Shown here one piece after another: positions 5,869 to 8,516 of a stretch of DNA of 64,000 bases (within the stretch, counting starts at the first letter, position 1; each line of letters opens with the position of its first letter). The notes beneath the pieces were generated by a model that was given only the letters and a program-made list of their open reading frames with translations, had not been told where the DNA came from and ran no database searches. Made by a program: the position numbers and the translations under genes. This stretch comes from Pseudobutyrivibrio ruminis CF1b (GTDB lineage: Bacteria; Bacillota; Clostridia; Lachnospirales; Lachnospiraceae): NCBI RefSeq assembly GCF_000424005.1, contig NZ_AUJB01000010.1, forward strand, positions 62,001 through 126,000. The letters run 5' to 3'.

Positions 5869-5920
5869 TGGTATGCTAAGCTAAGATATAAAACAGCAAT
5901 ACGACAGTCCGGAGGTAATT

Positions 5921-7108
5921 ATGTTAAAAGGTAAATGTGTGGTACTTGGAGTAACAGGCTCCATTGCAGCATATAAGATTGCAAATCTTGCATCAGCTCT
6001 AGTGAAATTGGGCGCTGATGTTAATGTCATCATGACTAAAAATGCCACTAATTTTATCAACCCAATTACCTTTGAAACTTTAACAAGTAATAAATGTCTT
6101 GTGGACACATTTGATAGGGATTTCCAGTTTAATGTGGAGCATGTGGCCCTCGCAAAGAGAGCAGATATTTTCATGGTGGCACCAGCCAGCGCCAATGTCA
6201 TAGGGAAGATGGCACATGGAATCGCTGACGATATGCTTACTACTACCATTCTTGCTGCAAAGTGCAAGAAGCTTGTGAGCCCAGCCATGAATACAAACAT
6301 GTTTACAAATCCTATTGTCCAGGACAATTTAGAGATTTTGAAAAAATATGGATTCGAGATAATTCAACCAGCCAGCGGCTATTTAGCATGCGGCGACACT
6401 GGTGCAGGTAAGATGCCTGAGCCAGAGGTTTTATTACAGTACATACTTAGAGAAATCGCTTTCGACCACGACCTCGATGGGAAGAAGGTTATGATAACAG
6501 CAGGGCCTACTCAGGAGGCAATTGACCCAGTAAGATACATTAGCAACCACAGCACAGGCAAGATGGGCTATGCTATCGCCAGAGCGGCAATGCTTAGGGG
6601 AGCTGAGGTTACACTTGTAAGCGGTCCAGTGGCTATTCAGCCACCTATGTTTGTAGATGTAGTGAATATCAAGAGCGCGGCAGAGATGGCTGAAGCAGTG
6701 AAGTCTCGAGCCGGGGAGATGGATATAATAATCAAGAGTGCAGCAGTGGCGGACTATCGTCCAGCGACTGTGGCAGCTGAGAAGATTAAGAAAAAAGATG
6801 GTGAAGCTTCTTCTATTGAGCTTGAACGTACAGAAGATATTTTGTCATTCCTTGGGGCTAATAAAAAGCCAGGCCAGTTTATCTGCGGATTCTCTATGGA
6901 GACGGAAAACATGCTGGAGAATTCCAAGGCAAAGCTTAAGAAGAAAAACGTAGATATGATTGTAGCCAACAACCTGCGCACTGCAGGCGCAGGCTTCGGC
7001 ACCGACACCAATGTAGTGACTCTGATTACTGCTGATGATGCCCGAGAGCTTCCAATCATGTCCAAGGAAGACGTAGCCCAGGCTATATTGGATGAAATAG
7101 TTAAATAG
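5921..7108 (+). CDS. coaBC: Bifunctional phosphopantothenoylcysteine decarboxylase / phosphopantothenate-cysteine ligase
   Basis: A 395-residue fusion of the two coenzyme A enzymes. The CoaC half (about 1-180) is a flavoprotein decarboxylase with GVTGSIAAYK at 10-19, the active-site His74 (VEHVALAK), the PAMN motif at 121-124 and the conserved Cys157 of the substrate lid (LACGDTGAGKMPE). The CoaB half starts near 187 (KKVMITAGPTQEAIDPVR), with NHSTGKMG, and ligates cysteine to 4'-phosphopantothenate using CTP. Length is typical. GGAGG about 10 bases upstream sets the start. It sits about 100 bases after panT across a repeat element, making a pantothenate-to-CoA unit. Confidence 0.95.
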   Translation: MLKGKCVVLGVTGSIAAYKIANLASALVKLGADVNVIMTKNATNFINPITFETLTSNKCLVDTFDRDFQFNVEHVALAKRADIFMVAPASANVIGKMAHGIADDMLTTTILAAKCKKLVSPAMNTNMFTNPIVQDNLEILKKYGFEIIQPASGYLACGDTGAGKMPEPEVLLQYILREIAFDHDLDGKKVMITAGPTQEAIDPVRYISNHSTGKMGYAIARAAMLRGAEVTLVSGPVAIQPPMFVDVVNIKSAAEMAEAVKSRAGEMDIIIKSAAVADYRPATVAAEKIKKKDGEASSIELERTEDILSFLGANKKPGQFICGFSMETENMLENSKAKLKKKNVDMIVANNLRTAGAGFGTDTNVVTLITADDARELPIMSKEDVAQAILDEIVK

Positions 7109-7120
7109 AAGATTTTTATT

Positions 7121-7152
7121 GGACCCCTGCTTTTGTCAGGGGTCCTTTTTTT
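7121..7152 (+). terminator. Rho-independent terminator of coaBC
   Basis: GGACCCCTG and CAGGGGTCC form a perfect 9-bp stem, followed by TTTTTTT. Confidence 0.95.
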
Positions 7153-7257
7153 GTGTGCGGGATTGGTGGGGAATTATTAGGTTGTAGTATTTTGGGGTAT
7201 AAAGATAGTTGTTCTTGGAATATTAGCAGGTTGATTTGGATTTTATGTTATTTAGTG

Positions 7258-7286
7258 TTTACAAATTTACTTACGCGTGTTAATAT
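7258..7286 (+). promoter_or_regulatory. Candidate promoter in the long gap before the repeat array
   Basis: TTTACA at 7258-7263 and TAATAT at 7281-7286 with a 17-base spacer. The -10 region sits inside an inverted repeat, CGCGT (7274) and ACGCG (7290), a possible operator. If used, its transcript would run through the repeat array at 7483-7686 into the nuclease gene, giving a leader of over 400 nt. No coding frame with a ribosome site was seen between 7153 and 7482. Confidence 0.4.
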
Positions 7287-7482
7287 ATAACGCGATTTAA
7301 AAGAAATCTCATAGGAAATTCTTTTTATTGATGTCTGCGGTGTTCGCGTGCAGATAAATTCCCACATTTTCATAGTTTTATAGAAATAAATTGATAGTTA
7401 TGGGGCTTATTGCAGGTTAAATGCAAGGTTTAGGGCTGCGATTTAAGGATTAATACGGGAGATATAGGACAAAATGCTTTGA

Positions 7483-7686
7483 CCTCACGTAGTGTTTGGA
7501 GCTTGTGAAACTGCTTGCTACGTGAGGTGGGAAAGAACTGTTCTAAACCTCACGTAGGATTTCCAGCGAAAAAGGGATTTCACTACGTGGGGTTAACCAA
7601 TAAAACGCCCTACCTCACGTAACCGGTCAAGAAATAGAGCAAAAACCTACGTGAGGATTATAAGGAAAATGCGATACCTCACGTAA
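7483..7686 (+). repeat. Array of seven 10-bp motifs in alternating orientation (65-bp period)
   Basis: CCTCACGTAG or -A occurs at 7483, 7548, 7613 and 7677, and its exact or one-mismatch complement CTACGTGAGG at 7518, 7583 and 7647. Distances alternate 35, 30, 35, 30, 34, 30. Each forward/reverse pair could form a 10-bp stem around 24-25 bases of variable sequence, and units are joined by 20 bases. The joiners share AAAA-YGC just before the motif. A degenerate eighth copy (CTACGAGAG) follows at 7687. The last unit ends about 30 bases before the ATG of the nuclease gene. It is not a CRISPR array: repeats are too short and alternate in strand. Confidence 0.85.
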
Positions 7687-7718
7687 CTACGAGAGAAATA
7701 GAAAGAAAAGGAAGTAAT

Positions 7719-8516
7719 ATGGAAAATTTGAAAGTAAAAATGGAAGAGCAACTAAGAGAAATAGACAGGCTTATAACTAAATCCAATAAAACATTAGAGA
7801 GACTAAAGGATACTCCTAATAAAAAAATAATGGTAAGCAAGAGTAATGGAAGTACACAGTATTATTGGGTAGATTGGAAGACAAAGGAGCGAAAATACGT
7901 ATCAGTATCAGAAAAGAGGCTATTAAGAAATGTGGCTCAAAGGGATTATGAGGAAGTGGTTAACCGCAAATTATGCTCCCTGAAGAGCACATTAGAAAAG
8001 TTTATTAATAAGTATGATATCGATGAAATATATGCTGTTTACAATAAGATGTCTGAAGGTAAGAAAGCACTAGTTACCCCTATTGAAGAGGTAGATGAGG
8101 TTTATATTAAAAATTGGCTAAATGATACCTACGACCCTATGGGGTTTATGGATAATACTGAGTTTTATTCCAACAATGGGGTCAGGGTCAGATCAAAGTC
8201 AGAGCTGATAATAGCTAATCTACTGGAGCAGTATGAGATTCCTTATAAGTATGAGAGACCTATACAGCTGCGAGGATTGGGAAATGTCAGGCCTGATTTC
8301 ATTTGCTTGAACAAAAGAGAGAGGAAAGAGTTTGTTTGGGAGCACTTCGGGATGATGGATAATGGTGAGTATGCTAATAAAAATATCTCTAAGCTGAACA
8401 TGTATCAGCAGAATGGATATTATCTCGGGGAAAATATGATAGCATCTTTTGAAACTTCTCAGCAGCCAATTAGCTCTAAAAATATAAAAACCCTGATTGA
8501 GCAGCATTTACAGTAA
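7719..8516 (+). CDS. PD-(D/E)XK-like nuclease of unknown role next to the repeat array
   Basis: A 265-residue protein. Residues 1-125 are charged and helical, with a small YYWVDWKTKERKYVS segment at about 45-60 that resembles a DNA-contacting beta element. The C-terminal half has the layout of an endonuclease fold: RSKSELIIANLL (helix with Glu), YKYERPIQL, RPDFICLN (Asp of the PD motif), then KEFVWEHFGMMDN (Glu and a conserved His) and a final YYLGENMIASFET strand. I read this as a PD-(D/E)XK nuclease by motif order only. Proteins of this shape are frequent, unnamed genes in Lachnospiraceae. GGAAG precedes the ATG. Its position immediately behind the repeat array suggests it acts on, or is controlled by, those repeats. 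Confidence 0.6.
   Translation: MENLKVKMEEQLREIDRLITKSNKTLERLKDTPNKKIMVSKSNGSTQYYWVDWKTKERKYVSVSEKRLLRNVAQRDYEEVVNRKLCSLKSTLEKFINKYDIDEIYAVYNKMSEGKKALVTPIEEVDEVYIKNWLNDTYDPMGFMDNTEFYSNNGVRVRSKSELIIANLLEQYEIPYKYERPIQLRGLGNVRPDFICLNKRERKEFVWEHFGMMDNGEYANKNISKLNMYQQNGYYLGENMIASFETSQQPISSKNIKTLIEQHLQ

Follow-up and report, generated by a model that had tools for sequence, protein, structure and literature searches.

A 64,000-nucleotide stretch of the Pseudobutyrivibrio ruminis CF1b genome (hereafter the window) carries an array of short repeats that alternate in strand directly ahead of a gene for a nuclease-like protein, which raises the question of what the repeats are to the protein and what form of nucleic acid they act in. 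An initial annotation had taken the two together as a nuclease-plus-palindrome module and had suggested selection on the motif or on hairpins of RNA or single-stranded DNA, with REP palindromes and their RAYT nucleases as the known parallel.

The array in the window and the protein encoded next to it

The features of the locus are the following:

7121–7152, + strand: terminator-like hairpin of the preceding coaBC, the left limit of the inserted unit
7151–8144, + strand: segment that does not align to the same site in two relatives, G008 and G022 (BLAST)
7258–7286, + strand: promoter-like TTTACA-N17-TAATAT, a consensus match only, upstream of the array
7454–7685, no strand: array of four 38-bp dyads TACGTGAGG-N20-CCTCACGTA (from the arms, the register and the helical spacing of the class)
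7719–8516, + strand: gene for a 265-aa PD-(D/E)XK nuclease-like protein, cognate of the array (open reading frame, family, fold, HMM matches)
7719–8144, + strand: N-terminal half (aa 1–142), proposed reader of the half-site (model, motif correlation, replacement together with the array)
8145–8513, + strand: C-terminal PD-(D/E)XK domain (alignments, HMM, DNA identity from 8145)

As originally described, seven copies of CCTCACGTAG start at 7483 (+), 7518 (−), 7548 (+), 7583 (−), 7613 (+), 7647 (−) and 7677 (+), with start spacings of 35, 30, 35, 30, 34 and 30; four copies are exact and three carry one mismatch, and the seven matches in the window compare with a mean of 1.05 in shuffled sequence, none of 100 shuffles containing as many. 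The last arm ends at 7686, 32 bases before the start of the open reading frame at 7719, and a degenerate eighth arm, TACGGGAG, lies 5′ of the seven at 7454–7461. Using TAC/GTA, orientation could be assigned to 79 of the 135 arrays of the nuclease family, and 56 of these 79 start TAC-first and end GTA-last (8 show the reverse and 15 are mixed), which makes TACGTGAGG-N20-CCTCACGTA a better description of the unit than CCTCACGTAG-N25-CTACGTGAGG. The window array then comprises dyads at 7454–7491 (with the degenerate first arm), 7519–7556, 7584–7621 and 7648–7685, separated by gaps of 27, 27 and 26 bp. Copies and spacings of the initial annotation are thus retained, whereas its unit register and its number of arms are replaced. 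A consensus search of the region returned 9 promoter-like sites against 5.7 expected; given the putative promoter at 7258–7286, the array would fall in the 5′ leader.

The AlphaFold model of the protein (pLDDT 91.7, pTM 0.59) pairs an N-terminal part of long helices and a beta hairpin with a C-terminal alpha/beta domain, in which R158-S-K-S-E162, Y178-E179, P192-D193, E208-H-x-G211, Y218 and E245 are conserved and E162, D193 and E208 are invariant in two sets of 32 (A1) and 59 (A3) aligned members. Foldseek matched the model at probabilities of at least 0.89 to Bax1 (0.99, 0.97, 0.90), R2 (0.96) and DrdV (0.89), with MunI, BamHI and FAN1 also among the matches, all of which we take to be PD-(D/E)XK enzymes, at E-values that are weak (best 0.009). 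The C-terminus of the PADLOC model PDC-S68 was matched by 59 of the 59 A3 members (in the window protein at residues 150–263, E 8.9e-27) and the PADLOC model HEAT_CxxC_PDDEXK by 52 of them, and these matches bear out the PD-(D/E)XK fold proposed at the outset. By model, HMM and the invariant D193 and E208, the window protein has the core fold with its acidic active-site residues; the usual lysine of (D/E)XK is out of its usual place (E-H-x-G), so that catalysis is not assured. In Pfam the window protein had nothing above the curated cut-off and one weak match (E 0.0082), in NCBIfam it had zero matches, and scans of 59 members against both collections gave no family common to most and no transposase among the listed matches.

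The likeness to the two PADLOC models is confined to the C-terminal nuclease domain: the PDC-S68 models span 1202–1273 positions and HEAT_CxxC_PDDEXK spans 288, whereas the protein considered here stands alone at 265 aa, has a different N-terminus and is accompanied by an array. The name PDC-S68 was not found in the literature searched. As both models are defence candidates, the matches favour the main rival to the reading proposed below, an autoregulated defence or toxic nuclease attacking foreign or stressed DNA, for which the array would be no more than an operator and a sink, holding the protein and keeping expression of its gene low, arrays elsewhere being extra sinks or relics. The position of the window array between promoter-like site and gene also suits this rival, which on balance we hold to be rather unlikely.

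Homologues and the DNA around them

A whole-genome search found nine family members in the genome of origin (G000), the window gene included. The family is present in 28 of the 29 genomes of the genus, again counting the genome of origin, and in 32 of 61 genomes overall, with up to 11 enzyme genes per genome. At least 565 relatives were confirmed, the best 80 being kept for analysis; those named belong to Pseudobutyrivibrio, Butyrivibrio, Lachnospira and metagenome-assembled Lachnospiraceae. The bacteria concerned are from gut and rumen. When the order was sampled, 82 of 392 genomes were positive at an E-value of 1e-15 or better; they represent 38 of 174 genera, mostly from two families. The dN/dS ratio was 0.06–0.17 in 13 close gene pairs, three of the 16 pairs being left out: L030/L031, which is saturated; L094/L105, whose ratio of 0.92 probably stems from a misread frame; and L013/L052, the replaced pair (0.13).

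No conserved partner gene was seen, the commonest neighbour family occurring at 10 of 101 loci, and neither a methylase nor a transposase was a conserved neighbour among these 101. A stand-alone gene of this kind accords with a defence nuclease, whereas many exact sites in self DNA, together with the lack of a conserved methylase-like neighbour, speak against one. Tn7 carries arrays of sites for the TnsB transposase at its ends, and its TnsA is a PD-(D/E)XK nuclease. The linkage of repeated protein sites to such a nuclease is shared by the loci described here; unlike Tn7, they have no conserved transposase neighbour, and their arrays are symmetric.

At most of the loci viewed, the DNA upstream of the homologue contains an alternating inverted-repeat array, the motif being common to close relatives and different between lineages. 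We scored such arrays with a detector of alternating 8-mers and compared the scores with those of dinucleotide shuffles. The upstream score exceeded the maximum of 179 shuffles at 137 of 179 loci, some of which may be false since other parts of the window include low-complexity tiles that score up to 11.0 (15 of 211 window tiles, the array's own included, lie above 8.2); at 111 of the 179 loci it exceeded this top score of 11.0. In a later set of 57 loci, many of them from other genera, which is not wholly independent as some of L343–L370 come from genomes possibly in the best-80 set, the maximum of 111 shuffles was exceeded upstream at 38 loci, downstream at 11 and, counting either side, at 44; the second family of the order, included in this set, had a scored array at 3 of 7 loci.

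Where both flanks were available (163 loci, cut 9), arrays were found upstream only at 109, downstream only at 9, on both sides at 12 and on neither at 33, compared with the flanking of the gene on both sides by inverted repeats that is a feature of REP/RAYT. Degenerate arms are visible by eye at two loci scored as lacking an array (L044, L045), and four loci sit at the cut of 9.0 (L034, L040, L041, L065); some of the 33 have degenerate arms, and others may truly be without an array. Arrays are not confined to the upstream side, lying downstream of some members and occurring as orphans elsewhere, and at three loci (L120, L138, L048) the array is, by eye, upstream of the promoter-like site. Arrays in these positions, downstream of the gene or ahead of its promoter-like site, weigh against an operator as required by the defence reading. 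The upstream array of L124 (AAACATG) has a period of 51 bp, a multiple of three, and might overlap a coding repeat.

Two control regions were analyzed for comparison. Upstream of larE-like genes, 23 of 24 regions had no array, the exception being an orphan array of G000; downstream of coaBC, 24 of 27 had none, the exceptions being the three sites with the nuclease. The highest score among the array-less control regions was 7.6. At the one site where arrays might have proved equally frequent without the nuclease, downstream of coaBC, the gene is present in 3 of 27 genomes and arrays occur in exactly those three. The nuclease-plus-repeat module of the initial annotation is supported, and likewise its suggestion of selection on the motif.

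An origin of the family in phages or plasmids was considered and rejected. Relatives were found in 3 phage records (one covering at least 80% of the query) and in 8 plasmid records, six of the latter annotated as AAA family ATPase; these records are all below 60% identity, and the 8 relatives from IMG/VR had upstream array scores of 4.8–6.8, under the cut. One phage entry from human faeces, MT839528.1, which is 4.2 kb long, lacks annotation and bears the name "Bacteriophage sp.", encodes a near full-length homologue at positions 383–1120 (90% of the query, 32.7% identity). Another homologue, L064 (G003:C1:1149922-1150644), has three stop codons and keeps its array as well as a matching orphan array in G003.

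Specificity, replacement and helical spacing of the half-sites

Across 106 arrays, motif similarity was related to identity of the N-terminal half once C-terminal identity was allowed for, with a partial rank correlation of 0.184 that none of 300 permutations equalled; the converse value, for C-terminal identity given N-terminal, was 0.017 and was reached by 71 of 300. This division is clearest at the site of the window gene, as compared with two relatives, G008 and G022. Both align to the window at ∼90% DNA identity over 5901–7150, on the coaBC side, and again, at 79–83% identity, from 8145, the start of the nuclease half; in between they carry another promoter region, a ATTATATG array and another N-terminal half, and the sole BLAST match within 7151–8144 is one of 34 bp at 7350–7383 in G008 only. 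As read from these alignments, the two relatives differ from the window by a joint replacement of the promoter region, the array and the N-terminal half, the nuclease half being retained, and comparison supports the N-terminal half as the part that would set which half-site is used. In a further relative, G009, the site is empty, homology ending at about 7157 and resuming at 8514, the stop codon. Presence and absence at the same site between species, with specificity replaced, would also be in keeping with a defence nuclease.

Distances between neighbouring same-strand arms, with each distinct value counted once per array, pile up at 52–53, 62–64, 73–74, 83–86 and 93–94 bp in 109 representative arrays. 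The best period is 10.5 bp (10.65 within 45–100 bp) with R = 0.76 and a phase near 0, and none of 2000 and none of 1000 jittered sets reached the same-strand phasing. At 10.5 bp the later loci gave R = 0.68, and 12 orphan arrays were phased with R = 0.77, which 0 of 5000 sets reached. Among the 109 consensus motifs, 63 contain one of TAC/GTA, 6 contain both and 40 neither, the dyad register being unproven for those 40. Of 83 dyad lengths measured between TAC/GTA anchors, 54 are 36–38 bp; the gaps that separate the dyads measure 14–17, 25–27, 35–37, 47–49 or 56–58 bp in 85 of 100 cases. The comparison thereby supports a reading of the sites as inverted dyads of nearly fixed length (37–38 bp where the anchors are measurable), whose gaps would step by one helical turn, which would place all half-sites of one strand on a common face of the double helix.

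The suggestion of RNA or single-stranded DNA hairpins did not hold up in these analyses. Predicted RNA folding of the window array looked favourable (z = −5.93), yet compensated arm changes in orientable arrays with at least three distinct arm pairs did not exceed permutation under either register (10 observed against 10.3, and 11 against 12.8), nor did flank complementarity within units, and stems were not extended unit by unit; with the spacing following the B-DNA helix, the RNA hairpin reading was rejected. Rfam gave zero matches in the window or in 13 further loci. The arrays look like sites in duplex DNA on one face of the helix, and not like hairpins, as far as comparative sequence can tell.

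These results bear on two further explanations. In one, modelled on type III toxin–antitoxin systems, the repeats would be transcribed into RNA hairpins, and these would neutralise the nuclease by binding it. In ToxIN and CptIN, as here, a nuclease gene has repeats immediately ahead of it, and the folding z-score points the same way, although any inverted repeat gives such a value; the repeats act as RNA in those systems, whereas the comparison here points to duplex DNA. The lack of compensatory excess and of unit-specific stems, the 10.5-bp phasing, the arrays downstream of the gene and the zero Rfam result at the window and the 13 further loci make this explanation very improbable. The ToxN fold differs from that of the window protein. 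The other is an RNA-guided system with variable spacers, for which features of CRISPR and TIGR were used for comparison: constant repeats with variable intervals are common ground, but a repeat that varies between lineages and an interval length set in helical turns leave a CRISPR-like or TIGR-like system with next to no likelihood.

Orphan arrays and a candidate two-part unit of nuclease and repeats

An orphan array of the window motif is located in G000 at C1:54223-54458, with no nuclease near and inside a dispersed structured repeat; the matching place in G022 has no array, and copies of the outer repeat elsewhere contain arrays of other motifs. Over five genomes, 13 orphan arrays were collected, and 9 of them match a motif linked to a resident nuclease, where 1.08 would be expected from 25 other genomes; this count uses detected words only, and the G003 match, TACAGTGT, is to L064 with its three stops. 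Of the four arrays left unmatched, three belong to G011, and the fourth is L311 of G000. The motif of L311, TGCGATAA, equals the one flanking L050 of the same genome, whose arrays lie under the detector cut (upstream score 7.4; 6 copies on each side, a one-base variant included). Pairs of TATCAAT number 38 in G003 and 13 in G000, both of which have a cognate (L139 and L049), and 9 in G013, against 0–4 in the other 26 genomes. Comparison between genomes supports that a motif found in an array beside the gene recurs in arrays at distant places of the same genome, and that motifs differ between lineages.

In G011, L317 and L321 are GACACGAA orphan arrays of 10–14 arms for which no resident cognate was found, and G013 has 9 TATCAAT...ATTGATA pairs (C14:215096-215321, C23:525517-527328) with no evident cognate, possibly a relic or a sign of a missed one.

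At six contig ends of G000, array stretches of 135–202 bp are 98–100% identical, and in two of the six the DNA ahead of the array is unlike that of the others (33% and 32% identity across the preceding 150 bases), this flank being, at L309, the other arm of the outer repeat. Such near-identity points to recent copying or to exchange between repeats. Several of the contig ends L302, L303, L304, L305, L306, L307, L309 and L310 stop inside TTTATCAAT or TTTGTCA arrays, which places the arrays among the repeats that break the G000 assembly. The outer repeat, TTTCAACCTGC ... GCAGGTTGAAA, is a dispersed intergenic structure (L004:5060-5510, corresponding to G000:C1:54059-54509, with copies in L302-L318) that lies downstream of gene terminators, has inner stems that vary and stay paired by eye, and hosts orphan arrays; it had no Rfam match at gathering score.

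Orphan arrays that carry the motifs of resident nucleases in several genomes, with no nuclease gene near, argue against the defence reading. A chromosome organiser, in which a nuclease fold now bridges arrays in the manner of other site-specific nucleoid proteins, would suit the occurrence of helically phased sites at several places in the chromosome. The invariance of the active-site-type residues E162, D193 and E208 in both alignments is at odds with such a role, and several differing motifs per genome, as well as presence and absence between species, are ill-suited to housekeeping, so that we consider an organiser improbable.

The closest known counterpart in layout remains REP/BIME with RAYT, described in PMC2817692 as alternating repeats in arrays and dispersed copies that are cognate to a resident gene; RAYT enzyme and repeat co-diversify (PMC2817692, PMC3733652). 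The alternating arrays, the enzyme gene beside them and the dispersed copies matching the motif of the resident enzyme recur here. In contrast, the enzyme is by HMM and fold a PD-(D/E)XK protein and not a Y1 HUH (IS200/IS605-type) transposase; the palindrome is not kept by complementary mutations; the repeats are inverted dyads of duplex DNA with helical phasing, whereas REPs are conserved palindromic hairpins; and a genome may hold up to 11 enzyme genes, the N-terminal half being replaced together with the array. For the same reasons, namely a PD-(D/E)XK in place of an HUH enzyme and a palindrome whose pairing is not conserved, a true REP/RAYT system, its hairpins moved as single-stranded DNA by a Y1 HUH transposase, is scarcely credible in spite of the like layout of alternating repeats, dispersed copies and cognate gene (PMC2817692).

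Overall, we favour, as probable by a small measure, a two-part unit in which a stand-alone PD-(D/E)XK nuclease-like protein is paired with its cognate array of duplex-DNA sites, repeats that the nuclease would spread. In the corresponding model, a protein dimer would bind each dyad, and neighbouring dimers may assemble cooperatively along one face of the DNA; where the array lies between promoter and gene, the protein would control its own expression. Once brought to array DNA, the nuclease domain could cause nicks or breaks, whose repair would copy arrays to new places and lengthen them. Nuclease and repeats would then maintain each other in the manner of RAYT and REP, but with duplex DNA in the place of single-stranded hairpins. 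Copying driven by the nuclease would be the weakest step of this mechanism. Joint gain and loss of array and nuclease as a unit needs no nuclease action, and proteins that bind arrays along a single face of the helix could act as regulators and contribute nothing to the spreading of repeats. Somewhat short of an even chance, in our estimate, is the further step to a new class of repeat-maintaining or selfish element, in which PD-(D/E)XK nucleases with exchangeable N-terminal readers would copy helically phased dyad arrays through the host genome as duplex DNA, about nine independent nuclease–array specificities existing side by side in one cell.

Within the literature covered (titles and the starts of abstracts, with preprints and most subscription papers outside coverage), arrays of this kind with PD-(D/E)XK proteins were not found, and the nuclease-plus-repeat system is apparently undescribed, the window being one case of a large system. 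If the favoured two-part unit is real, bacteria would have, alongside RAYT/REP, a second cognate nuclease–repeat system of unrelated origin, acting on duplex DNA. Its hundreds of natural pairs of protein and motif, with an exchangeable reader half, would offer material for studying both the recognition of DNA by a small protein and the retention of a nuclease on phased dyads. The unit would, moreover, explain part of the intergenic repeats and some of the contig breaks in genomes of rumen and gut Lachnospiraceae.
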